From a virus: a stretch of DNA of 64,000 nt. The position numbers and the translations under genes were made by a program. The notes beneath the pieces were generated by a model that saw nothing but the letters and a program-made list of their open reading frames with translations, did no database searches and was not told the DNA's origin. The DNA lies in the IMG/VR virus record IMGVR_UViG_3300030041_000022, positions 1-64,000 of that record, one strand, 5' to 3'. Positions 2,729 to 63,502 of the stretch are shown piece by piece (the stretch's first letter is position 1; each line of letters begins with the position of its first letter).

Positions 2729-4009
2729 TTAGGGTACCTGCAGGGCGGCTTGGATGGTCAGGGCCGCGTTGGTGTTGTTGAAGATGGCTGTAGTGGTCGA
2801 CGACAGGTGGAGTAGCCCCACGTCCTGATTTGCCGAACCTACGCCGCCGATGGAAGCGGCTTGATATTGCGACGGGAAGTTCATGACGATGGTCACCAAC
2901 GACACCGTGGGCGTATTTGCGGCGGTGCTTGTCTCCAGGCCCCACGCAAAGTCGAGAGCGGTCTGAGCGGGGAGTGAAGCGACGGTGACACCGGCCAGGG
3001 CAGTCGTGATGGTCGACAGGCTGGTGCCGTTGGTCGCTATAGCGGAGAGCGTCGTAGTGGTCCATGCCGAGCCGTTCCGGTACTTCCACGTCGTACGCCC
3101 ATCGAATGAGACCAGGCCGACCAGGGTCGTGCCAGATGGTGTGGTACTTGTAAAGGTGACCGAGGTAATGCTGGCCGGGCTGAAAGCCGCCAAGGAGAAG
3201 CTCGACCCAGTGGAGGTCGTGGCGTAGTACATTGTCCCGGTCGGGTAGGTATAGGTACCAGGCCCCAGGATCTGCACTTGATTCAGCTCTACGTGATACG
3301 CACTCCCTCCTACCGAATTGGTGAAGGCTATCTGGTAGTATCGATAGGGGGTCGAGTTAGAAAACGTGTAGCCGGATGCTGAGGCATTTGTTGGGTTCTG
3401 TCCAGTGCGAGAGTCGAGCGTCGTCCACGGCCCAGTCAGGCCGATGTTCGAGCCGCTCACCGTCCAGGCTGATGGAGCGTTATTAGCTTGCTGGTAAGCG
3501 CCCACGAGGTAACCCGTGGCCACTATTGCTGAGCCAATATCTATGGCCGCAGTACCGGTGTTATATGTCGCAAATTCCATTTGTGAGGTGGTATAGAGGT
3601 TGGTCGTGCACCAGGTCTGGTATGCATTGAATCCCGACTGGATGAATGTTCCAGCCGCCGCGTAGGGGCTCGGTGCGGAGTTGGACGTCATGGACACTGT
3701 GGGGTAATAAGTGCCGGCGCTGAGCGTAGCGAATAGGCTGAGCGCATTCAGATTCGGGGTGACGTTGATCTGCGTCCCCGAAGCAGAATTCTGCTGCACA
3801 TAATTGCTGGCGCTGGAGAAGTTATCACTCGTGCTGGTATAGGTCGACGCGGTGACCTGCTTGCTCACTGCCAGGGCGTATTCGTTATTTGTGATCGCGG
3901 GATGCGTGACTACTACCGAATCGCCAACGGTTCCATAAGCGGACAGTGTGACCGGATTGGTGCTGGTCTGAGTGATCGAGAGTGTTTGTGCAATGGGATT
4001 GAAGCTCAT
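2729..4009 (-). CDS. Fibre/adhesin-like protein, tandem paralogue 1
   Basis: First of three head-to-tail paralogues of 426, 425 and 429 residues. The sequence is Ser/Thr/Asn-rich with few charged residues, as in phage fibre or spike proteins. The N-terminal domain (to about residue 65) starts with NPIAQTLSITQTSTNPVTL; the middle holds a probable beta-sandwich carbohydrate-binding-type domain (TVSGSNIGLTGPWTTLDSRT, YRYYQIAFTNSVGGSAY, VELNQVQILGPG); the C-terminus ends IQAALQVP. Its middle is almost identical in DNA to the next gene while both ends have diverged. Likely a surface-exposed receptor-binding protein; exact role is inference. Confidence 0.8.
   Translation of the reverse strand: MSFNPIAQTLSITQTSTNPVTLSAYGTVGDSVVVTHPAITNNEYALAVSKQVTASTYTSTSDNFSSASNYVQQNSASGTQINVTPNLNALSLFATLSAGTYYPTVSMTSNSAPSPYAAAGTFIQSGFNAYQTWCTTNLYTTSQMEFATYNTGTAAIDIGSAIVATGYLVGAYQQANNAPSAWTVSGSNIGLTGPWTTLDSRTGQNPTNASASGYTFSNSTPYRYYQIAFTNSVGGSAYHVELNQVQILGPGTYTYPTGTMYYATTSTGSSFSLAAFSPASITSVTFTSTTPSGTTLVGLVSFDGRTTWKYRNGSAWTTTTLSAIATNGTSLSTITTALAGVTVASLPAQTALDFAWGLETSTAANTPTVSLVTIVMNFPSQYQAASIGGVGSANQDVGLLHLSSTTTAIFNNTNAALTIQAALQVP
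2929..3808. repeat. Near-identical direct repeat, copy 1 (partner 4211-5087)
   Basis: About 880 bp inside paralogue 1 match 4211-5087 in paralogue 2 almost base for base. The offset is 1282 bp at the low-coordinate end and 1279 bp after a 3-bp indel near 3250. Identity starts at TTGTCTCCAGGC and stops abruptly after TAATTGCT. The flanks, encoding the N-terminal and C-terminal domains, are clearly different. This is a signature of recent gene conversion or duplication followed by terminal exchange. Confidence 0.9.
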
Positions 4010-4010
4010 A

Positions 4011-5288
4011 TCAAGGCACCTGGAGGGCGGCTTGAATCTGGAGCGCCGCCGGGGTATTGTTGACGAGGACCGTGGTGGTGCTGCTCGCTCGCAACATGCC
4101 GATATCCTGGGTCGCCACTCCCAGTTTGCCCACTGAGGCAGACTGGTACGCGGCAGGAAGTGCGATCACGATGGTGACCAGGAATACCGCTGGTGTAGCT
4201 GACGCACTGGTTGTCTCCAGGCCCCACGCAAAGTCGAGAGCGGTCTGAGCGGGGAGTGAAGCGACGGTGACACCGGCCAGGGCAGTCGTGATGGTCGACA
4301 GGCTGGTGCCGTTGGTCGCTATAGCGGAGAGCGTCGTAGTGGTCCATGCCGAGCCGTTCCAGTACTTCCACGTCGTACGCCCATCGAATGAGACCAGGCC
4401 GACCAGGGTCGTGCCAGATGGTGTGGTACTTGTAAAGGTGACCGAGGTAATGCTGGCCGAGCTGAAAGCCGCCAAGGAGAAGCTCGACCCAGTGGAGGTC
4501 GTGGCGTAGTACATTGTCCCGGTCGGGTAGGTATAACCAGGCCCCAGGATCTGCACTTGATTCAGCTCTACGTGATACGCACTCCCTCCTACCGAATTGG
4601 TGAAGGCTATCTGGTAGTATCGATAGGGGGTCGAGTTAGAAAACGTGTAGCCGGATGCTGAGGCATTTGTTGGGTTCTGTCCAGTGCGAGAGTCGAGCGT
4701 CGTCCACGGCCCAGTCAGGCCGATGTTCGAGCCGCTCACCGTCCAGGCTGATGGAGCGTTATTAGCTTGCTGGTAAGCGCCCACGAGGTAACCCGTGGCC
4801 ACTATTGCTGAGCCAATATCTATGGCCGCAGTACCGGTGTTATATGTCGCAAATTCCATTTGTGAGGTGGTATAGAGGTTGGTCGTGCACCAGGTCTGGT
4901 ATGCATTGAATCCCGACTGGATGAATGTTCCAGCCGCCGCGTAGGGGCTCGGTGCGGAGTTGGACGTCATGGACACTGTGGGGTAATAAGTGCCGGCGCT
5001 GAGCGTAGCGAATAGGCTGAGCGCATTCAGATTCGGGGTGACGTTGATCTGCGTCCCCGAAGCAGAATTCTGCTGCACATAATTGCTCGCGCTCGAGAAA
5101 TTGATGCCAGTATTGGTATACGACTGCCCTGAGACGTACTTCGATACCGTCAGCGCCAGTTCGTTGTTGGTCACGGCTGGATGAGTGATCGTGACTGAGC
5201 TTCCATTGCCGCCGCCGCCCGCGAGGGTAATCGGATTCGTGCTCGTCTGGGTGACCGACAGTGTTTGCGCAAGGGGGGAGTAGGACAT
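4011..5288 (-). CDS. Fibre/adhesin-like protein, tandem paralogue 2
   Basis: 425 residues beginning MSYSPLAQTLSVTQTSTNP. Same architecture as its neighbours: a diverged N-terminal strand-rich segment, a discoidin-like central beta domain and a variable C-terminal domain ending IQAALQVP. The middle differs from paralogue 1 by only a few changes, including one 3-bp deletion (GTYTYP becomes GYTYP), Pro to Ser and Arg to Trp. It lies one base from paralogue 1 and one base from paralogue 3, so the three are co-transcribed. Probable virion surface protein. Confidence 0.8.
   Translation of the reverse strand: MSYSPLAQTLSVTQTSTNPITLAGGGGNGSSVTITHPAVTNNELALTVSKYVSGQSYTNTGINFSSASNYVQQNSASGTQINVTPNLNALSLFATLSAGTYYPTVSMTSNSAPSPYAAAGTFIQSGFNAYQTWCTTNLYTTSQMEFATYNTGTAAIDIGSAIVATGYLVGAYQQANNAPSAWTVSGSNIGLTGPWTTLDSRTGQNPTNASASGYTFSNSTPYRYYQIAFTNSVGGSAYHVELNQVQILGPGYTYPTGTMYYATTSTGSSFSLAAFSSASITSVTFTSTTPSGTTLVGLVSFDGRTTWKYWNGSAWTTTTLSAIATNGTSLSTITTALAGVTVASLPAQTALDFAWGLETTSASATPAVFLVTIVIALPAAYQSASVGKLGVATQDIGMLRASSTTTVLVNNTPAALQIQAALQVP
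4211..5087. repeat. Near-identical direct repeat, copy 2 (partner 2929-3808)
   Basis: Second copy of the repeat that covers the central domain of fibre-like paralogues 1 and 2. It differs from the first copy by a 3-bp deletion and a few substitutions. Paralogue 3 shares only short blocks of it. Confidence 0.9.
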
Positions 5289-5289
5289 C

Positions 5290-6579
5290 TTAGACCACCT
5301 GCAGAGCAGCTTGGATGGTCAGGGCGGCATTCGTATTATTGAAAAGCGCTGTCGTCGTGGCCGTGAGCCGCACCATGCCAATATCCTGGGTGCTCCCCAA
5401 ACCACCGGTGAGCGCCGCTTGATACCCGGAAGGGATGCTGATGACAACAGTCACCAGCGAGACCGACGGGGTGTTCGCGGCTGTTGTTGTCTCCAAGCCC
5501 CACGCAAAGTCTAAGCCCGTCTGCGCCGGCAAGGAGTTGATGGTCGCTCCTGCGAGTGCTGAGCTGATGGTTGCCAGGCTGGTCCCCTGAGCAGCTATAG
5601 CGGAAAGCGTTGTGGTGGTCCATGCCGAGCCATTCCAGTATTTCCAGGTCGTCTGATTATCGAATGAGACCAGACCGACCAAGGTCGTGCCGGATGGGGT
5701 GGCGCTAGTGAACGTAACAGAGGTGATGGTTCCGCCCGCATACCCGGCAAGGCCCACGTTCGACCCGGCTGAGGTCGTCGCATAATACATGGTGCCCGTC
5801 GGATAGGTCCATGAGCCGGGGCCCAGGATCTGCACCTGATTCAGTGCTGCGACGTATGCTGAGCCGCCCACCGTATTAGTAAAAGCGAATTGATAGTAAC
5901 GATAAGCAGTGGTGTTGGAGAAGGTATATGTGGACGCCGATGAACTTGTGGGATTTTGAGCGGTGCGGGTATCGAGAGTTGTCCAAGGCCCAGAAAGGCT
6001 CGTGTTAGAGCCACTAAGCGTCCAGGCAGCCGGGGCATTATTTCCCTGCTGGTAGGCGCCGACGAGATATCCAGTGGACAGGAATGCCACTCCCATATCG
6101 ATGGCAACTGTTCCCGTATTATAAGTAGAAAATTCGCACTGCGATGAGGTATAGAGGTTCGTCGTCTGCCACGCGGAGTAGGGTAGAAAAGCGTTGTTAA
6201 GATTCGTGCCGGCTGCCACATAGGGTACCGGGGCTGTGTTTGTGGTCATCGATACGGTGGGGTAGTATGTGGTCCCTCCCGAGGTCGCAAACAGGGTTAG
6301 CGCGTTTAGACTCGGGAGGGCGTTGATCTGCGTCCCCGAAGCAGAATTCTGCTGTACATAGTTGCTGGCACTTGAAAAATTATCTCCCGTATTCGTATAG
6401 GTTGCTCCGGACACGCTCTCATAGACAGCCAGCAGGTACTCGTTATTCGCAATGCTCGGATGAGTGATGACCACCGAATCCCCAATAGTCCCCTGCGCCG
6501 CCAACGTGACCGGGTTGGTCGACGTCTGGGTGATCGACAGGGTCTGGGTGGTCGGATTATAGCTCACAGGACACGCCAC
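5290..6579 (-). CDS. Fibre/adhesin-like protein, tandem paralogue 3
   Basis: 429 residues beginning MACPVSYNPTTQTLSITQ. It is clearly homologous to paralogues 1 and 2 over the whole length but has diverged throughout. Short blocks remain identical, such as the YVQQNSASGTQIN segment and the FNNTNAALTIQAALQV end. It is the oldest copy by divergence. Its start overlaps by 16 bases the stop of the large fibre gene at 6564-9779. Likely an alternative surface-binding protein of the same virion structure. Confidence 0.8.
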   Translation of the reverse strand: MACPVSYNPTTQTLSITQTSTNPVTLAAQGTIGDSVVITHPSIANNEYLLAVYESVSGATYTNTGDNFSSASNYVQQNSASGTQINALPSLNALTLFATSGGTTYYPTVSMTTNTAPVPYVAAGTNLNNAFLPYSAWQTTNLYTSSQCEFSTYNTGTVAIDMGVAFLSTGYLVGAYQQGNNAPAAWTLSGSNTSLSGPWTTLDTRTAQNPTSSSASTYTFSNTTAYRYYQFAFTNTVGGSAYVAALNQVQILGPGSWTYPTGTMYYATTSAGSNVGLAGYAGGTITSVTFTSATPSGTTLVGLVSFDNQTTWKYWNGSAWTTTTLSAIAAQGTSLATISSALAGATINSLPAQTGLDFAWGLETTTAANTPSVSLVTVVISIPSGYQAALTGGLGSTQDIGMVRLTATTTALFNNTNAALTIQAALQVV

Positions 6580-18565: not shown

Positions 18566-18863
18566 GGGCAGCGTTCGGACGGTCATGACCCCAAACCCCG
18601 ACTGGTACCAGCGTTTCTGCGCGCGGTATAAATCTGGGCGCCATCGGAAGAACCGGGCCTTCGAGACGAGCGTCCGGCGCCAGAAGACAGAGCGGGCCTT
18701 GAAGCGGATCATCAGCGGAGAGGTGCATACGATGGCGTACGCGAACCACGGCAAAAGCCCCTACGTCAGCCGGCTGATCCCTGAGATTCGGGACTATCTG
18801 CGGCGGGGAGATCAAGAGCGGAAAGAGCAGCGAGCACAAAGACTCGCGAGCGTGCCGTTTTGA
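18450..18863 (+). CDS. Basic hypothetical protein, 137 aa
   Basis: AAGGAG stands a few bases before the ATG at 18450, which supports this start in spite of a 116-bp overlap with the previous gene. The protein is strongly basic (KPKPLPKRLVQGARWMLDEL, YKSGRHRKNRAFETSVRRQK) and probably binds nucleic acid or an acidic partner. No known motif. The stop overlaps the TTG start of the nuclease gene. Confidence 0.65.
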   Translation: MLSKPKPLPKRLVQGARWMLDELQHQRLTVVLTPAREGEGSVRTVMTPNPDWYQRFCARYKSGRHRKNRAFETSVRRQKTERALKRIISGEVHTMAYANHGKSPYVSRLIPEIRDYLRRGDQERKEQRAQRLASVPF

Positions 18864-19501
18864 GCGCCAAGCTCACCATCGCCGCTCCACGCCAACCCGT
18901 CGCCCAGCTCCCCATCTGGGACTGGGTTGGCGACGTGCAGTTCTATTCGATGGCCCAGACCCGCAACGCCACAGGAGAATTCTGTGAAGAAGCAACCCGG
19001 CATCTCCTCGGCGGCGAGCGGCTCTCCACCCAAGGAACGGTGGACATCTGCCCGGACATCCGATTGGACGAGCATCGTTATCTTGAGGTTAAATCGGTGG
19101 GGGATCGGCGATGCGCCCTCCTCTACGAGCATATCCTCGACCGAACAATCCGGTTCGTCCGCCGTAACCGGGTCAAGGTCTTCTATGTCTTCTGGATCCA
19201 CACCGTTCCCGCCGCCAAGTGTCCCAGTCTATTCGATTTGCGACGGGCGATGGCCGCATCTATTGATCGTGTCATCATCGTCCCCTTCACCCAGGTGCAC
19301 GAGGCGATCAAGGGCATCACGCCCCGGAAGATGAACTACCGGGTCCGGGAGCACAGCGGGGAGCAGATCGCTATGCTCGGCTGGTCGATTCCGGTCAAGC
19401 AGCTGAAGGCCTGGAGCGTCGGACAGCCGCGAATGGCGTTTGACACCGAGGTCTTCGGGTATTCGATGGGTGGGTATCCGGTCTATGGAGACGTGCGATG
19501 A
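18860..19501 (+). CDS. PD-(D/E)XK nuclease-like protein
   Basis: 213 residues, starting at a TTG that overlaps the previous stop (TTGA). The segment D66-(9 residues)-E76-V-K78 (in PDIRLDEHRYLEVKSVG) is a PD-(D/E)XK nuclease signature, with a preceding helix containing C-E-E (residues 42-44) and a strand-helix part after it. The C-terminus ends GGYPVYGDVR, a tail also found on the DNA methyltransferase at 20893-22728, the first gene of the next module. A restriction-type or repair nuclease is likely; pairing with the methyltransferase is inference. Confidence 0.65.
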   Translation: MSAKLTIAAPRQPVAQLPIWDWVGDVQFYSMAQTRNATGEFCEEATRHLLGGERLSTQGTVDICPDIRLDEHRYLEVKSVGDRRCALLYEHILDRTIRFVRRNRVKVFYVFWIHTVPAAKCPSLFDLRRAMAASIDRVIIVPFTQVHEAIKGITPRKMNYRVREHSGEQIAMLGWSIPVKQLKAWSVGQPRMAFDTEVFGYSMGGYPVYGDVR

Positions 19502-19638
19502 CCCTTCCCCCGCCCGTCATCTCGCTTGAGTCGCTGCTCTTCTGGAACCTGGCCGCCGCGGTCGGCATCACACTGCTCGTCCGGTTCTTGGTGCTCTGGC
19601 TCGCCCGTACCCTATTTGGAGAGGGCCATGACCACTGA
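19498..19638 (+). CDS. Small membrane protein, module copy 1 (46 aa)
   Basis: The ATG overlaps the nuclease stop (ATGA). The 46-residue product begins MTLPPPVISLESLLFW and has one long hydrophobic segment (NLAAAVGITLLVRFLVLWLA), then GEGHDH. A nearly identical gene lies at 22889-23029. Its stop lies inside the next gene. A membrane anchor or small virion/host-envelope protein is possible. Confidence 0.65.
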   Translation: MTLPPPVISLESLLFWNLAAAVGITLLVRFLVLWLARTLFGEGHDH

Positions 19639-19774
19639 GCAGCTATACTACGCGACCGGCATCGCTTCCAATGTTCTGACCATCCTGACCTGCGCCTACA
19701 CCATCTGGACGCTCCGCAGCTGGGTGAGCAGCACGGTGAAGAAGGCGCTCGACGACGTGAAGAAAGTGATCTGA
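19628..19774 (+). CDS. Small membrane protein, module copy 1 (48 aa)
   Basis: Starts at ATG 19628 inside the end of the previous small gene. MTTEQLYYATGIASNVLTIL continues through one membrane segment to a Lys-rich end (KKALDDVKKVI). Its twin at 23019-23165 differs at only a few bases. Together the two tiny genes form a conserved coupled pair. Confidence 0.65.
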   Translation: MTTEQLYYATGIASNVLTILTCAYTIWTLRSWVSSTVKKALDDVKKVI

Positions 19775-19775
19775 C

Positions 19776-20537
19776 ATGCCGAAATACCGCCAGGCGTCCG
19801 CGTATTCTCCGCCCGAGGACCCATTCCCAGTATTGAGGCCCACCATGCCCACCCCCATCCACCCGTGCGATGCACTTACCACACTCGAACCGAAGCAGCA
19901 GGGGGCCTTTCCTGATCCAGTGCGCTTCCCACCGCCGAAGGGCTCGGAGGGTTCCTGCGGCTGCCTCCTGACCGAGTGGCCGAACCCGCTCGATGGAAAC
20001 CCGCCCTACCAGAAACTTGAAACGATCTGGCAGCCGCTCTGGGATACCGTCTCGGCCCCAGAAGGCATGAAGGTCATGAACTTCTTCTCCGGCGATCGAG
20101 AGGACGACATCCTCTACGGAGAACGCGACCGCATGGGGTACCAAAAGAAGATGCGCGCCGATAACGGGCGCAGCTTCCCACGTTCCATCGGCGCGATGTT
20201 CTGGCCGAAGAAGTTCACCATGTGGGAGCTCGAGCTGCAGTTCAGTGATCCCAACGGATACGGGGACAGCATCCCCTCGAAGCTCGGCCTGCTCGATACC
20301 ATCGAAGGCGACTTCGCTCGGATCCGGATGCAGATCGGGGAAAAGTGGCATCTCGACCTCCCCTTCGCGTCTTTTTTCAAGGCTAGAGAGGACAACTACC
20401 GCGCGGCACTCTGCACCCCGCTCTTCCTCCCCTCGATACAGAACTTCGGCATCAGCCTGACCTGGCCGCGAGAATCCCGGGCCCGGTGCACTATCCGCTG
20501 CGTTCTCAACGGCTATCTCCACCGCGAAATTCCCTGA
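19776..20537 (+). CDS. REI-box family protein (candidate capsid-type), member 1
   Basis: 253 residues. It shares an ordered set of motifs with proteins at 37042-37596, 37674-38576 and 39811-40386: FWPKKFTMWELEL (the 'WPKRF' block), RMQIGEKWHLDLP (the 'IGEK' block), LFLPSIQNFGISLT (the 'YIPPVQ-F' block) and the end VLNGYLHREIP. The order and spacing suggest one all-beta fold. The extended N-terminus is Pro-rich. It is the third gene of the duplicated module and is missing from the second copy. Structural role inferred. Confidence 0.65.
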   Translation: MPKYRQASAYSPPEDPFPVLRPTMPTPIHPCDALTTLEPKQQGAFPDPVRFPPPKGSEGSCGCLLTEWPNPLDGNPPYQKLETIWQPLWDTVSAPEGMKVMNFFSGDREDDILYGERDRMGYQKKMRADNGRSFPRSIGAMFWPKKFTMWELELQFSDPNGYGDSIPSKLGLLDTIEGDFARIRMQIGEKWHLDLPFASFFKAREDNYRAALCTPLFLPSIQNFGISLTWPRESRARCTIRCVLNGYLHREIP

Positions 20538-20545
20538 GCCTGACC

Positions 20546-20896
20546 ATGCCCCTCTACCACCTCCTCGCTCAGCCCCTGCCCAAGCTCACTCCCGACGGGA
20601 AGCGCGTCTGGGTCTGCATCTGCGGCCAGAAGGTCGCCCTGCCGAACGTCCAGCCGGCGAGCCAGGTGATCCAGACCTCGAACAACCGGGTGGAGGTCAT
20701 GGAGTGCCCGGCCTGCTATGCTGGTACCGAGGAAAAGGGCGAAGAAGCCCCTCCGATGACCGAGCAGGGGGATATCAAACCGACCTTCGACCAAGATCTG
20801 GGAGATGCCACGGACGACCAATCTGCGCCGGATGAGACGGGTGAAGATGGGGAGGTTCTGGAGGAGGAGAAGGTCGACTTCCCTGACGCGCGATGA
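20546..20896 (+). CDS. Zinc-ribbon protein, module copy 1 (116 aa)
   Basis: The start MPLYHLLAQPL at 20546 is set by the twin gene at 23167-23517, which has the same length. Residues 20-60 hold a CxC pair (WVCICGQKV) and a later CxxC (MECPACY), a four-Cys zinc ribbon. The C-terminal 55 residues are very acidic (DATDDQSAPDETGEDGE) and end EKVDFPDAR. It may be a protein-interaction module or DNA mimic-like acidic protein; not assignable further. Confidence 0.7.
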   Translation: MPLYHLLAQPLPKLTPDGKRVWVCICGQKVALPNVQPASQVIQTSNNRVEVMECPACYAGTEEKGEEAPPMTEQGDIKPTFDQDLGDATDDQSAPDETGEDGEVLEEEKVDFPDAR

Positions 20897-22728
20897 CCCG
20901 ATATGGAAGCCTTTGTAGCGGTATTGAAGCAGCCACCGTTGCTTGGGATGGGATGGGATGGGAACCTGCATGGTTTAGCCAGTTCGATCCACAGCGTCCT
21001 GAAGGAGATTTCCCCTCTAGAATACTGGCCCACCACTACCCTGAAGTGCCTAACCTTGGGGATATTACATCTGAGAACTGGCTGACTCGGGCTTCAAGCT
21101 ATGGCGATATCGACGTATTGGTTGGTGGAACCCCCTGCCAAGCGTTTTCCATTGCCGGGTTGCGCAAAGGCCTTGAAGATCGCCGGGGCCAATTATCCCT
21201 TCGTTTTGTGGAGATAGCCGATGCCGCAGACCCACCCGTCATCCTCTGGGAAAACGTCCCTGGAGTCCTTAGTGATCGAACCAATGGATTCGGTTGCCTC
21301 CTCGCTGGGCTTGCCGGTGAAGATGTGCCGCTCCAGCCAGCAGGGCGAACATGGTCGAACGCTGGTTGTGTGTTTGGCCCCAAAAGAACAGTCGCATGGC
21401 GGGTCCTCGACGCCCAATATTTCGGACTGGCCCAACGACGCCGGCGTGTGTTTGTTGTCGCAAGTCCTGGAGCCAGCGGCATCGATCCATGCGAGATTCT
21501 ATTTGAGTTCGAAGGCGTGCGCCGGGATTCTCCGCCGAGCCGCGAAGCGGGGGAAAGTACTTCCCATCCAATTGCACCGTGCCCTGATCGGAGTGGTACA
21601 GGGTTCAGTCGAACCGGAGATATCCGGGGACAGGATCCCGTTGTAGTCTGCATTACAGGTGATCGGACTCACGCGCTGAGCGCGGAAGGTGCAGATGCAG
21701 GTGAAGATGGAACGGGACGGGGAACCCCAATTATCGCTGTCGGAGGAAATAATACTAGCGGCCCTATTACTGTTGCTGCTGCTTTGAATGCGAATAGGGG
21801 ATGCCCTAACCCAGGAGACTTTGAGGCTGGAACCTTGCTTGTCGCCTTCGATACGACCCAGATCACTAGTAAGACGAATCGCTGCCAGCCGAAGCACGGA
21901 GATCCCTGTCACCCTCTTGCTGCTGCTGCTCATCCTCCGGCGATAGCGATCCAGGAGCGAGCGATCTGTGAGAACCCCGATGCTGGACCTGATGGGATCG
22001 GGGTTCGCACTGATGACTGTGCTTATATCCTGGAAGCTCGAGGCGTTTCGCAGGCAGTATGCTTCCACCCGACACAAGACCCGATCCCGAATAGCGATAA
22101 TATCTGCCATGCTCTTGGTTGCGGGAACGGTCAGGGGCACGCAGCAGCAGCAGCAGTGAATATCGGGGTTCGGGTCCGCCGTCTTACTCCTCGCGAGTGT
22201 GAACGCCTGCAGGGATTCCCAGATGACTATACTGATATCCCAAAGAAAGTCTTTCGAGGTACCCCGAAAGACTCAGGCCCATGTAAGAAACAAATTGTTG
22301 TCGCCACTGTTGTTTCATTGAACGGCACCCATTATGTTGGCACAAATCATACGATGAACCCTCAAACGACTTGCCCCCGGGCTGGAATGCCAACTGGCGT
22401 CGGATATGAATTATGTCGCTCAATATGCCAGCAAACGGCACATGCAGAAGTAAACGCTCTTCAGCTTGCGGGCCGTAAAGCTCGCGGAGCAATACTTTAT
22501 ATAGAGGGGCACACATACGCTTGTGAGCCTTGCCTTAAAGTAGCTAAAGCCGCCGAGATTAGTTCTATTGTTTTTGGGAAGCCTCCTGGCACCAGCGCCG
22601 ATGGCCCCCGCTATAAAGCTCTTGGAAACAGCATGGCTGTCCCGGTAATGCGCTGGTTGGGATGGCGGATCGACAGTGCCTTGCGTACACGTTTGGGTGG
22701 GTATCCGGTTTATGGGGAGATTCGGTGA
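20893..22728 (+). CDS. Cytosine-C5 DNA methyltransferase with embedded dCMP-deaminase-like domain
   Basis: 611 residues, ATGA overlap with the previous gene. Methyltransferase motifs: I (GSLCSGIEAATVAW), IV with P81-C82-Q83 (GGTPCQAFSIAG), VI (ENVPG at 120), VIII (AQRRRRVFVVA), a long variable target-recognition part, IX (RRLTPRECERLQGFPDDY) and X (GNSMAVPVMRWLGW near 578). Between IX and X, residues about 465-568 look like a deoxycytidylate deaminase: TTCPRAG, YELCRSICQQTAHAEVNAL with H517-A-E519, and CEPC at 544-547 as the zinc site. The tail GGYPVYGEIR matches the nuclease at 18860. Base composition is lower in GC than the neighbours, suggesting acquisition. Confidence 0.85.
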   Translation: MTRYGSLCSGIEAATVAWDGMGWEPAWFSQFDPQRPEGDFPSRILAHHYPEVPNLGDITSENWLTRASSYGDIDVLVGGTPCQAFSIAGLRKGLEDRRGQLSLRFVEIADAADPPVILWENVPGVLSDRTNGFGCLLAGLAGEDVPLQPAGRTWSNAGCVFGPKRTVAWRVLDAQYFGLAQRRRRVFVVASPGASGIDPCEILFEFEGVRRDSPPSREAGESTSHPIAPCPDRSGTGFSRTGDIRGQDPVVVCITGDRTHALSAEGADAGEDGTGRGTPIIAVGGNNTSGPITVAAALNANRGCPNPGDFEAGTLLVAFDTTQITSKTNRCQPKHGDPCHPLAAAAHPPAIAIQERAICENPDAGPDGIGVRTDDCAYILEARGVSQAVCFHPTQDPIPNSDNICHALGCGNGQGHAAAAAVNIGVRVRRLTPRECERLQGFPDDYTDIPKKVFRGTPKDSGPCKKQIVVATVVSLNGTHYVGTNHTMNPQTTCPRAGMPTGVGYELCRSICQQTAHAEVNALQLAGRKARGAILYIEGHTYACEPCLKVAKAAEISSIVFGKPPGTSADGPRYKALGNSMAVPVMRWLGWRIDSALRTRLGGYPVYGEIR

Positions 22729-22892
22729 TCCATATCGTTCTGTGTTCAGCCGTAGTTCTCCTTATCGTAGGGTTAATGCTTTATGTCACGGAGAGGCGGT
22801 TGCGAAGCTGGCCGGTATTTGTCCGCGTGTTATGGTATACAATGCTCGTTGTGGCAGCCTTCAATACTATGCACGGAGCATTTTTCGAATGA
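22725..22892 (+). CDS. Small membrane protein, 55 aa
   Basis: A GTG at 22725 overlaps the methyltransferase stop (GTGA), and the stop overlaps the next ATG. The product begins with IHIVLCSAVVLLIVGLMLY, then a basic loop (TERRLRSW) and a second hydrophobic segment (VLWYTMLVVAAFNTM). It is present only in the second module, between the methyltransferase and the repeated small pair. Lower GC than the module. Function unknown. Confidence 0.6.
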   Translation: MIHIVLCSAVVLLIVGLMLYVTERRLRSWPVFVRVLWYTMLVVAAFNTMHGAFFE

Positions 22893-23029
22893 CTCTTCCC
22901 CCGCCCGTCATCTCGCTTGAGTCGCTGCTCTTCTGGAACCTGGCCGCCGCGGTCGGCATCACGCTGCTCGTCCGGTTCTTGGTGCTCTGGCTCGCCCGTA
23001 CCCTATTCGGAGAGGGTCATGACCACTGA
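22889..23029 (+). CDS. Small membrane protein, module copy 2 (46 aa)
   Basis: Protein identical to that of 19498-19638; the DNA differs at a few third positions (for example CCC to CTC after the second Met-Thr codon region). One membrane segment and a GEGHDH end. The ATG overlaps the stop of the 55-residue membrane protein. Confidence 0.65.
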   Translation: MTLPPPVISLESLLFWNLAAAVGITLLVRFLVLWLARTLFGEGHDH

Positions 23030-23165
23030 GCAGCTCTACTACGCGACTGGCATCGCCTCCAATGTTCTGACCATCCTGACCTGCGCCTACACCATCTGGA
23101 CGCTCCGCAGCTGGGTGGGCAGCACGGTGAAGAAGGCGCTCGACGACGTGAAGAAAGCGATCTGA
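23019..23165 (+). CDS. Small membrane protein, module copy 2 (48 aa)
   Basis: Twin of 19628-19774, with a Ser to Gly change in the SWVGSTVKKAL region and a Val to Ala change near the end. Starts inside the preceding small gene. Retained synonymous differences suggest the two copies have both been kept under selection. Confidence 0.65.
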   Translation: MTTEQLYYATGIASNVLTILTCAYTIWTLRSWVGSTVKKALDDVKKAI

Positions 23166-23166
23166 C

Positions 23167-23517
23167 ATGCCCCTCTACCACCTCCTCGGCCAGCCTCTCA
23201 ACATCGACCCCAACACTGGCAAGCGCATCTGGGTCTGCCTGTGCGGGCAGAAGGTGAGCCTGCCGAATGTCCAGCCGGCGAACCAGGCGATCTCGATCTC
23301 CAACAACCGGGTGGAGGTCATGGAGTGCCCGGCGTGCTACAACGCCACGGATGAGAAGGAGGAAGAGGCCGCGCCGGTCAGCGAGACCGACGGGGAGCTC
23401 AAGCCGACCTTCGATCAGGACATCGGCGAGGCCACTGATGACCAGGAGGCACCTGACGAGACCACCGGCGACGGTGAGGTGCTCAAGGAAGAAAAGGTCG
23501 ATTTCCCGGATACCTGA
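23167..23517 (+). CDS. Zinc-ribbon protein, module copy 2 (116 aa)
   Basis: Starts MPLYHLLGQPLNIDPNTGK. Same CxC (WVCLCGQKV) and CxxC (MECPACY) pattern and same acidic tail (DGELKPTFDQDIGEATDD, ending EKVDFPDT) as 20546-20896, but clearly more diverged than the preceding repeat. It closes the second module. Confidence 0.7.
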   Translation: MPLYHLLGQPLNIDPNTGKRIWVCLCGQKVSLPNVQPANQAISISNNRVEVMECPACYNATDEKEEEAAPVSETDGELKPTFDQDIGEATDDQEAPDETTGDGEVLKEEKVDFPDT

Positions 23518-41745: not shown

Positions 41746-42057
41746 CTAGGCCTTCTCTGCGTCCTTGACGGGCGCTATACCGATGATGGTACGAATCCGG
41801 GCCTTGGCCACCTCGCTGAGTCCCTGGAAGGCCAAGTCGATCATCTCCGGGTGGTCATTCACCAGCTCGCCGAAGACCTTGGATGCGATATACTTGCCCG
41901 CCCCGTCCTTCTTCGCCAGGTTCTTACCCGCGGTGATCGCCGGGATGATCCCCATCATGTCGAGCTTGAACCCGTTGCCGGCGAAGAGCCCGTCGAGCGT
42001 CGAGCGGATGGTACCGAGCACCTTCTGGACGTCGGGGTCGGTGGAGTGGTCGGTCAT
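41746..42057 (-). CDS. Hypothetical protein, 103 aa
   Basis: Helical, soluble protein with VQKVLGTIRSTLDGLFAGNG, IPAITAGKNLAKKDGAGKYI and RIRTIIGIAPVKDAEKA. Overlaps the end of the recombinase gene (ATGA). No recognised family. Confidence 0.6.
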   Translation of the reverse strand: MTDHSTDPDVQKVLGTIRSTLDGLFAGNGFKLDMMGIIPAITAGKNLAKKDGAGKYIASKVFGELVNDHPEMIDLAFQGLSEVAKARIRTIIGIAPVKDAEKA

Positions 42058-43028
42058 GGGAGCTCCAGCTCGGGTTCGGGCAGAGCGTCGACCTCCGCCT
42101 GGTCGGCGGGAGCGGCATCGTCAGGGGCGATCGTGGCGACCGGGTCCTCCAGGATCCGGAGGTCGGGGCGATCGTGGGCGACTCCCGTCGGGTCGGTGAG
42201 AATACCGCGGTAGATCGCGCGGTTCTTGATCACCCGGTGGACCTTCCCCTTGTACCAGATCTTGGCGCCGTGCCCATTCTCCCGCAGGTAGCGCGCAACC
42301 TCGTTCAAGGTCATCTTGGCGCCGTCGACCAGGGAGAAGATCAGGCGAACGATCGGAGCCTTCTGAGGGTCGATCGTCAGGTCGTGGTTGACCACCATGT
42401 ACCCATAGGGCTTGTTCCCCCCGATCCACCCACCACGGGCGTACTTGTTCTGGGTCCCCAGCTTCATGCGCATCTGGATCAGGTGGCGCTCGTACTGGGC
42501 GAAGGACCCGAGCACCTGACGCATCAGCACGCGCACCGGATCCGCGCTGGCGGCAGAGTCGGCCAGGAAGCTCTCGCTCGCGTAGGCGACCCCCAGGGTG
42601 ATGGCGTGGCGCTCGAAGAAGGAGAACAGCATATCCTGCTCGGCGGCGACACGCGACAGGCGGTCGAGCTTCCAGATCAGCAGCTTGGACCGATCCTGCT
42701 CGCACAGCTTGGACTGGTCGCGCTCGCACAGCTTGGCGATCAGGGAGGACAGCAGCGGTCGGGGCGATGCCGCGGGCACCTCCTCGGGTTTCATGCCCGG
42801 GAGGCGGACGGTGAACAAGGGCTTGGCGGCCGACGCCTTCTCGTAGACGATCCGCGGCTCGGGGATGCCCGAGCGCTGGCAGTAGCCGAGGATCGCCGTC
42901 CGCTGGACATCCGGCGACTCGTTGTCCTCGTGCGTGTCATCACTGACACGGACGTAGGCCCATATCGTTGGCAGCGGCTTCTCGCCGAAGGCATCCGCGA
43001 TGCCGGTAAGGGTGGTGATGAAGCTCAT
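42054..43028 (-). CDS. Serine recombinase (resolvase/invertase family)
   Basis: 324 residues. The N-terminal resolvase domain has the catalytic serine S29 in TIWAYVRVSDD, then the LLIWKLDRLSR and FAQYERHLIQMRMKLG blocks. A 'recombinase' domain follows (GGNKPYGYMVVN, GAKMTLNEVARYLRENG, VIKNRAIYRGILTDP). The C-terminal zinc ribbon and coiled coil of large integrases are missing; it ends with an acidic tail. An insertion of charged residues (CERDQSKLCEQDRSK) sits between strand and helix. Expected role: site-specific integration, resolution or DNA inversion. Confidence 0.9.
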   Translation of the reverse strand: MSFITTLTGIADAFGEKPLPTIWAYVRVSDDTHEDNESPDVQRTAILGYCQRSGIPEPRIVYEKASAAKPLFTVRLPGMKPEEVPAASPRPLLSSLIAKLCERDQSKLCEQDRSKLLIWKLDRLSRVAAEQDMLFSFFERHAITLGVAYASESFLADSAASADPVRVLMRQVLGSFAQYERHLIQMRMKLGTQNKYARGGWIGGNKPYGYMVVNHDLTIDPQKAPIVRLIFSLVDGAKMTLNEVARYLRENGHGAKIWYKGKVHRVIKNRAIYRGILTDPTGVAHDRPDLRILEDPVATIAPDDAAPADQAEVDALPEPELELP

Positions 43029-62047: not shown

Positions 62048-62517
62048 GTCTTCTGCTCCACGGCGCTATCAGGGTATGTGCCATTCCTGGGCAGCACGAC
62101 CGTGTCGATGCGACCGTTCATCGCATGGACCCGGTCGGCCAAGGCCTTGAGGTCGCTCGGCAGGCCTAAGCATCCACACGGCGCCTTGGGATTGTTGCTC
62201 CCGTCGATCGAGAACCGGCAGTGGGACTTGCCGCAGCCCTGCTGGACCTGCTCGACGACTCGATAGATCTCCGACGCAAGCTTCTGGCGCTCTTCCCAGT
62301 AGGCTTCGGACGCAATCTCGTCGGCGGTCAGCTCCGGCTTGATCCGGAAATGGTCGTACGACTGCATACCGGCGATCTCACGCGCACCCACATCCCGCCA
62401 CCGTTTGGTGTCGACGTATTGCCGCTGCACCGTCTGCCCGTGGGCATGGGCGGTGAGATACGTGATCATCAGCAGGGTGTGGGCCTTGGAGCCGGGTAGG
62501 TCGGGGAAGTCGGTCAT
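62044..62517 (-). CDS. Hypothetical protein with Cys clusters, 157 aa
   Basis: The ATG at 62517 overlaps the dNMP-kinase stop. MTDFPDLPGSKAHTLLMITY, helices with ADEIASEAYWEERQKLASEI, then CGKSHCRF and KAPCGCLGLPSDL. Possible zinc or Fe-S site. Unknown. Confidence 0.6.
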   Translation of the reverse strand: MTDFPDLPGSKAHTLLMITYLTAHAHGQTVQRQYVDTKRWRDVGAREIAGMQSYDHFRIKPELTADEIASEAYWEERQKLASEIYRVVEQVQQGCGKSHCRFSIDGSNNPKAPCGCLGLPSDLKALADRVHAMNGRIDTVVLPRNGTYPDSAVEQKT

Positions 62518-63122
62518 GATTTCTGCTCTCTGGCGCGCTGCGCCGTGACGATGATGTGCTCCGCCATCCATTCCCAGTCGATCTCGGCTCGGGGCTTGAG
62601 CCAGATCGTCTCGGTGATGCAGGCGGCCGGGAGACGTTGATTGGTGACGTGGTCGTCGGCGTACTCGACCCCTTCGCGACGGAGTTCGATCACTGCGTCG
62701 GCAAGGAAGGCCTCGTTCACAAAGCGCACATCGGTGATCAGGGTCACCCCGTGCGTCCGCTGGGCAAGCCGAGCCTTCATCAGCTCGACCCAGTGGTTGA
62801 CCCCCAGCTGCTCGCGCACCACTTCGGTGCCGATGAACTGCATGAGCTTACGCGGGGACCAGCCGATGAGGGATTGCGTTGGGGCGGTCGTAGGTTCCCA
62901 TACCACCTCCTTGGTGGTCTCGTCCATGAGTTGCTCCGGCGCCCATCCGGTAAGCGCAGCGACGCAGCGATAGAGGGGCGCCGCGAACTTGTCGCGATAG
63001 CACAGGTGCTTCTGCTGAAACCAGACTTTCCCGGCCAGGGAGTTGGCGACAGTGTCCTTGCCGGTGCCGCGCGGGGCAGAGAAGCCGATCGTGAGATGTT
63101 GGAGGAGGGAGAGATCGATCAT
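62514..63122 (-). CDS. Deoxynucleoside monophosphate kinase-like protein
   Basis: 202 residues from the ATG at 63122. The P-loop GFSAPRGTGKDT (K22), the block SPRKLMQFIGTEVVREQLG followed by NHWVELMKARL, and LITDVRFVNEAFL match the phage T4 gp1-type dNMP kinase family. The protein would phosphorylate dNMPs (possibly modified ones) to supply replication. Confidence 0.85.
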   Translation of the reverse strand: MIDLSLLQHLTIGFSAPRGTGKDTVANSLAGKVWFQQKHLCYRDKFAAPLYRCVAALTGWAPEQLMDETTKEVVWEPTTAPTQSLIGWSPRKLMQFIGTEVVREQLGVNHWVELMKARLAQRTHGVTLITDVRFVNEAFLADAVIELRREGVEYADDHVTNQRLPAACITETIWLKPRAEIDWEWMAEHIIVTAQRAREQKS

Positions 63123-63502
63123 GGCGCAGCCTTTCCGCACGGCTGCCAGACCACGCCGTCATGGTCCACCCGCAGCTTGGTATACTCGTAGGCCTCGAGC
63201 AGCTTCGCAAAGGTGATCCACCCGCGCAGCGATGAGAGGACCCCTTCCGGGTTCACCTCCATGATGATCCCGCGCCGGTCAGGGTCTCCCTTCTTGGACC
63301 GGATGATGGCGCCCATGGGGACGTCACGAGAGGCCCAGGGAACGAGCTTGGGCGCGGGCTTGACCCGGTAATTCCATTTCCCGCCGAAACCCATCTGCTC
63401 ATTCGGAACCCATACACCATCGAGTCGCTGATATTCGATCTCCTGGCCTTTGGAATAGGCCTCGATGATGGGGAGCAGTTCGGCGGCGCGTTCAGGTCTC
63501 AT
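63119..63502 (-). CDS. Hypothetical protein, 127 aa
   Basis: The start at 63502 (MRPERAAELLPIIEAYSKGQ) overlaps the next gene. IEYQRLDGVWVPNEQMGFGG and WNYRVKP look like small beta proteins often seen in phage ('GxWxxNxxxFxxxxxYRxKP'). C-terminal part with FAKLLEAYEYTKLRVDHDG. Unknown. Confidence 0.65.
   Translation of the reverse strand: MRPERAAELLPIIEAYSKGQEIEYQRLDGVWVPNEQMGFGGKWNYRVKPAPKLVPWASRDVPMGAIIRSKKGDPDRRGIIMEVNPEGVLSSLRGWITFAKLLEAYEYTKLRVDHDGVVWQPCGKAAP

Follow-up and report, generated by a model that had tools for sequence, protein, structure and literature searches.

The window analyzed here, from a virus found in environmental metagenomes (64,000 nucleotides, positions 1 to 64,000 of IMG/VR virus record IMGVR_UViG_3300030041_000022), carries a gene that encodes a C5-cytosine methyltransferase with a deaminase domain inserted between its motifs IX and X (Table 1). 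The reading frame (plus strand) has no internal stop and stays open across both junctions of the insert, which rules out a hidden second gene, and the frame error splitting the ORF in two that the original prediction had considered did not occur. No promoter-like site was found near the fused gene.

Table 1. Features of the fused gene and of the repeats around it (positions in the window).
Feature	Position	Strand	Basis or remark
Fused C5-cytosine methyltransferase/deaminase gene	20893..22728	+	611 aa, ATG start, TGA stop
Methyltransferase part, residues 1-451, motifs I to IX	20893..22245	+	PF00145 (DNA_methylase) E = 1.6e-35; Foldseek M.HhaI
Motif IV PCQ, residues 81-83, Cys82	21133..21141	+	Sequence
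Motif VI ENV, residues 120-122	21250..21258	+	Sequence
Motif VIII QRRRR, residues 181-185	21433..21447	+	Sequence
Motif IX RLTPRECERLQGFP, residues 430-443	22180..22221	+	Sequence
Inserted deaminase domain, residues 452-568, 117 aa	22246..22596	+	PF00383; linker comparison; AlphaFold2
HAE (H517, E519)	22441..22449	+	Kept in 53/53 family rows
CEPC (C544, C547)	22522..22533	+	Both Cys in 53/53 family rows
Motif X (GNSMAV, residues 578-583) and C-terminal tail	22597..22725	+	Sequence
C-terminal tail (GGYPVYG), copy of the end of ORF 18860-19501	22694..22731	+	Repeat D4, 82% over 38 nt; other copy 19467-19504
Upstream repeats D1 (19498-19791) and D2 (20597-20764)	19498..20764	+	Repetition seen for D1 and D2
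Downstream repeats D1 (22889-23182, 95%) and D2 (23218-23385, 80%)	22889..23385	+	Repeat comparison

The C5-methyltransferase motifs PCQ, ENV, QxRxR, IX, and X are ordered in one chain, with CSGIE at residues 8-12, and Cys82 is presumably the catalytic cysteine, as established for C5 methyltransferases. The fused protein also matches PHROG 116 (E = 3.5e-77), and its alignment with P1 Dmt spans 58% of the query at about 45%. In the order of its motifs and in its phage-type sequence it agrees with phage orphan C5-methyltransferases (PF00145; PHROG 116), P1 Dmt among them. By all features tested, this part is a C5-methyltransferase, with activity predicted from the intact motifs.

The insert can be assigned to the zinc deaminase superfamily. 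Pfam family dCMP_cyt_deam_1 (curated cut-off 25 bits) matched the insert alone with 34.2 bits, and it matched residues 461-562 of the whole fused protein with 29.1 bits. Further Pfam matches of the insert were MafB19-deam and a weak Copper-fist, and the DddA-like family PF14428 was not among its matches at E <= 1, though activity on DNA is possible without such a match. From established knowledge of the superfamily we take H517, C544, and C547 to be zinc ligands and E519 to be the proton shuttle. A PDB sequence search returned partial deaminase matches and artefacts with designed repeat proteins. The original prediction had described an ORF with ordered methyltransferase motifs and a deaminase-like domain between motifs IX and X; PCQ, ENV, motif IX, motif X, HAE, and CEPC all lie at or very near the positions it gave, its deaminase domain is borne out by the profile match above the curated cut-off, and that match together with the linker comparison delimits the domain at residues 452-568.

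The insert is preceded by DDYTDIPK and followed by ADGPRYKALGNS, and the same two segments are separated by one residue in an ordinary enzyme (L110). The fetched loci contain 64 distinct occurrences of motif IX, and in 61 of them GNS follows after 16 to 25 residues; the exceptions are the fused protein of the window (134), a second fused locus, L017 (122), and L290 (182). L290 is a phage C5-methyltransferase with an unrelated insert of about 160 aa (approximately 5404-5889) at nearly the same place, for which Pfam and PHROG searches gave no match. Because this unrelated insert sits there, the loop between motifs IX and X appears to tolerate inserts, and it may have received them repeatedly.

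The fused gene is present in other records. The IMG/VR record 3300030518_000006 has an identical gene, with no differences over 10,351 bases, and a Planctomycetota MAG contig (PLEW01000002.1) is 99.95% identical over 10.35 kb, with the differences outside the gene and the gene itself identical; records with identical copies may derive from related samples. A diverged case comes from a beta-proteobacterial MAG (L017), in which the same insert lies at the same place and the region from motif IX to motif X is 59% identical. The methyltransferase frame of L017 is interrupted upstream of the insert, near homopolymer runs (4441-4700), which may equally reflect assembly error, decay, or phase variation. 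With its frame broken, L017 independently supports the architecture but cannot attest to a functional gene. An assembly chimera or frame error in the window is ruled out by the identical copies in two other records and by the diverged fusion, and the proposal of one polypeptide with both domains is upheld. Further fusions were sought in IMG/VR, genome contigs, phages, plasmids, and 369 genomes of the class to which the L017 genome belongs. Only one of the 369 genomes has the fusion, the L017 genome itself; beyond the window's virus and L017, none was found among the examined loci from IMG/VR, contigs, phages, and plasmids, and in the phage collection none of 1,176 matching records covers at least 80% of the fused protein. 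A literature search of titles and abstract openings found neither a fusion of a methyltransferase with a deaminase like this one nor a comparable gene pair.

The fused gene looks recently acquired, judging by its low third-position GC (0.47, compared to 0.7-0.9 in most listed ORFs), the flanking repeats, and the tail that copies the end of ORF 18860-19501. It is placed as if substituting for one copy of that ORF, which encodes 213 aa, has an EVK-type motif (LEVKS), and stops where the upstream repeat starts. In PADLOC, the ORF matches methyl-directed restriction enzymes very weakly (E = 0.015). Elsewhere in the window, three adjacent ORFs (2729-6579, minus strand; 425-429 aa each) start alike and form an apparent tandem paralogue array. 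The same virus encodes a serine recombinase (42054-43028, minus strand) and a deoxynucleotide monophosphate kinase (DNMK; 62514-63140, minus strand).

Structure prediction is consistent with the domain assignment. In the AlphaFold2 model of the full chain, block means of pLDDT are 92-97 for residues 461-560, and the insert alone reaches a mean of 94.5. The insert is modeled with a deaminase fold, one of the checks that the original prediction had asked for. The mean for the full chain is 63, with residues 207-423, 439-447, and 569-578 below 50; the alignment used for prediction (A6) misplaces motif IX of ordinary enzymes. Foldseek matched the fused model to M.HhaI (E = 6.5e-11, probability 1.00, TM-score 0.25 by query and 0.44 by target). 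The first matches of the insert were PBCV-1 bi-DCD, a dCMP/dCTP deaminase (E = 1.8e-4), and human dCMP deaminase (E = 2.8e-4); nucleotide deaminases fill the top ranks, and a dsDNA deaminase (9k3e) stands at rank 27. In a second structural comparison, Streptococcus mutans dCMP deaminase and human cytidine deaminase tied at a middling Z of 7.7. The modeled domain has about 105 residues, its last strand lying at positions 104-107 of the 117.

The insert belongs to a compact family of phage deaminases. One profile scan found 71 loci in IMG/VR, two of them from the window's own virus, and the family alignment has 53 rows (the window, L017, and 51 others). H517, E519, C544, and C547 are invariant in all rows, and so are C494, C508, and C512. 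Free-standing members (IMG/VR loci, plasmid phiTHAF39, and phage Langgrundblatt2) are of the same family as the insert but are separate genes; those aligned are 36-63% identical to it. In the two fused proteins the insert has a rather basic pI (9.0 and 8.8), and the family as a whole has a median pI of 7.5 and a net charge of +1. NCBIfam antiphage_deaminase matches one of the 53 members, and PADLOC gave the insert a weak dCTPase match (E = 6e-5). An anti-phage defense enzyme was set aside as an identification, the best 25 of the 61 PADLOC models matching the whole protein all being methyltransferases. RibD was rejected: NF008052 matches 20 of the 53 members, and the window's insert scores 21.5 bits against a cut-off of 500.

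The insert is homologous to canonical phage dCMP deaminases, and it shares with the dCMP deaminases (DCTDs, EC 3.5.4.12; T4 Cd, S-TIM5, PBCV-1 bi-DCD, human) the zinc deaminase fold and an active site of HAE and CxxC. DCTDs are defined by a PCxxC zinc motif and an allosteric motif G(Y/W)N(A/G) (PMC12088426). PCxxC is present in 7/7 canonical phage enzymes and G(Y/W)N(A/G) in 6/7, but neither occurs in any of the 53 family rows. DCTD protomers are about 20 kDa, and the seven canonical phage enzymes have 130-180 residues, so the insert, at about 105, is much shorter. Because both motifs are absent and the domain is so short, the insert should not be classed as a DCTD on its sequence, and it may still work like one. 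The same source states that DCTDs act on 5-methyl-dCMP, that the XP-12 phage enzyme, also a DCTD, makes dTTP out of 5-methyl-dCTP by deamination, and that an aromatic residue near the methyl group is reported for the T4, PBCV-1, and XP-12 enzymes (PMC12088426). XP-12 thus offers an earlier example of a zinc deaminase from a phage acting on a 5-methylcytosine nucleotide to yield the thymine counterpart, although its enzyme, unlike the insert, is described there as a DCTD (PMC12088426). In the phage collection searched, which may not include XP-12, the insert matched 11 records, none of them from XP-12.

Free-standing members of the family are genomically tied to C5-methyltransferases, and the link is partial. 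The records of 50 of the 51 non-redundant free-standing loci were searched (L094 was left out), and PF00145 was present in 25. Of these 25, 19 have it no more than 1 kb away and on the same strand, compared to 2.4 expected on either strand under random placement; for records of at least 15 kb, it is nearby in 15 of 21 (1.1 expected). With one HMM and similar flanks, a methyltransferase was found within 1 kb in 17/51 family loci and in 0/50 canonical dCMP-deaminase loci (Fisher p = 3e-6, the loci not being phylogenetically independent). The control was drawn from the best 80 of at least 557 relatives of two Streptomyces-phage enzymes and so leans to Streptomyces-phage types. An alignment of diverse canonical enzymes was too variable to search, so the control was built around these two. 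Over whole control records, PF00145 occurred in 2/50 at E <= 0.001, one of them above the cut-off. Among 101 mechanically chosen neighbor ORFs, PF00145 was the commonest Pfam family (15), followed by DUF6378 (4).

The arrangement of the paired genes varies. At four loci (L031, L033, L036, and L037) the deaminase gene is downstream and its start codon overlaps the methyltransferase stop, and at three (L043, L047, and L076) it is upstream. Genes for the deaminase, a Vsr mismatch endonuclease, and a C5-methyltransferase are consecutive in L045 (3183-5006), and Vsr was found in one of the 51 records searched. In the Marinobacter plasmid phiTHAF39 the deaminase gene is directly 3' of a methyltransferase gene, and in phage Silvanus it adjoins a methyltransferase that has no Pfam match. 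By annotation, Xanthomonas phage Langgrundblatt2, Pfeifenkraut, ANB28, and phiXF1 have no adjoining methyltransferase, and the neighbors are mostly hypothetical proteins. With the HMM used, no methyltransferase turned up within 1 kb at 34 of the 51 family loci, and 25 of the 50 records, many of which are fragments, have no PF00145 at all. In the reverse direction, none of 91 phage methyltransferase loci picked independently of the deaminase (redundancy kept) had a family member in the 3-6 kb flanks. The deaminase is therefore an optional, not a general, companion of cytosine methyltransferases. The pairing hints that methylation and deamination work together, and the functional coupling of the two domains, proposed before these homologues were known, is now better supported through their neighborhoods.

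What the insert does can be weighed against these observations. It could be a dCMP deaminase whose dUMP feeds thymidylate synthesis; fusion and neighborhood would then reflect something other than methylated nucleotides. Such a role would fit the PF00383 match above its curated cut-off, the homology with canonical phage dCMP deaminases, and the DNMK gene in the window, but it leaves the pairing with methyltransferases unexplained. ThyA was found in 2/51 and ThyX in 4/51 family records, and neither is in the window's own record; since the host's thymidylate synthase could do the job, little can be made of a missing viral gene. ThyX (counted in the control set, with ThyA left out) occurred in 15 of 50 control records, all 15 of them among the 18 closest to the control query and none among the other 32, and for this reason the contrast says little outside one related phage group. 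These counts weakly disfavor the dUMP supply that was suggested in the original prediction, and we consider it rather unlikely. The domain could also serve as something other than an enzyme, such as a zinc-stabilized specificity, oligomerization, or regulatory module of the methyltransferase, or be carried along without a role, tolerated by a loop that accommodates inserts. L290, with its unrelated insert at nearly the same place, points in that direction, as does the fact that the domain stops earlier than canonical deaminases. However, the catalytic Glu is kept in every family row along with the three zinc ligands, and a structural module would need no Glu, which makes this quite improbable.

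Action on DNA itself is a further candidate. The tethered domain would deaminate C or 5mC where the methyltransferase binds, or close by. It might edit 5mC to T in this way, or it might attack DNA of the host or of competitors that carries no methylation, the viral DNA being shielded by its own. The fusion itself and the close pairing of the genes with those of diverse C5-methyltransferases are consistent with it, as are the basic pI of the insert in both fused proteins and the one locus (L045) where the deaminase, Vsr, and methyltransferase genes are consecutive. Against it stand the near-neutral median pI and small net charge of the family, the lack of a DddA-like Pfam match in the insert, the scarcity of Vsr among the records, and the Foldseek ranking, in which nucleotide deaminases precede the dsDNA enzyme. 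We regard deamination of DNA, including the base editing raised in the original prediction, as unlikely. A deamination-modification system, in which the methyltransferase protects or marks viral cytosines and the tethered deaminase converts unprotected host or competitor C, or hits marked 5mC to give T, is something of a long shot; if true, it would amount to restriction through deamination in place of cleavage, or to 5mC-to-T conversion at chosen sites.

Because the family is coupled to cytosine methyltransferases, a role in handling methylated cytosine seems the likeliest. Since known DCTDs accept 5-methyl-dCMP and the XP-12 enzyme makes dTTP from 5-methyl-dCTP (PMC12088426), we favor conversion of 5-methyl-dCMP to dTMP in the infected cell, tentatively and with slightly less than even confidence. 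The methyltransferase part would methylate cytosines in DNA and so mark it, as its intact motifs suggest, and the inserted domain would act on the deoxynucleotide pool. There, 5-methyl-dCMP freed by turnover of methylated DNA, and probably also dCMP, would be deaminated to dTMP (or dUMP). In this way 5-methyl-dCTP would be kept out of replication and recycled as thymidylate. We infer both activities, the substrate, and the benefit from the observations set out above. Some points speak against this reading: a pool enzyme needs no fusion to a methyltransferase, most loci (34/51) lack a nearby methyltransferase, half of the records (25/50) lack one altogether, the reverse search was empty (0/91), and dCMP deaminase and cytidine deaminase tie in the structural comparison.

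Phages commonly carry orphan C5-methyltransferases, for which an anti-restriction role is the usual interpretation. If a deaminase is their partner, at times within one polypeptide, some phages would be combining cytosine methylation with cytosine deamination. If the substrate is a nucleotide, the fusion would reveal a phage way of dealing with 5-methylcytosine in the nucleotide pool; if the substrate is DNA, it would be a natural methyltransferase-guided base editor.
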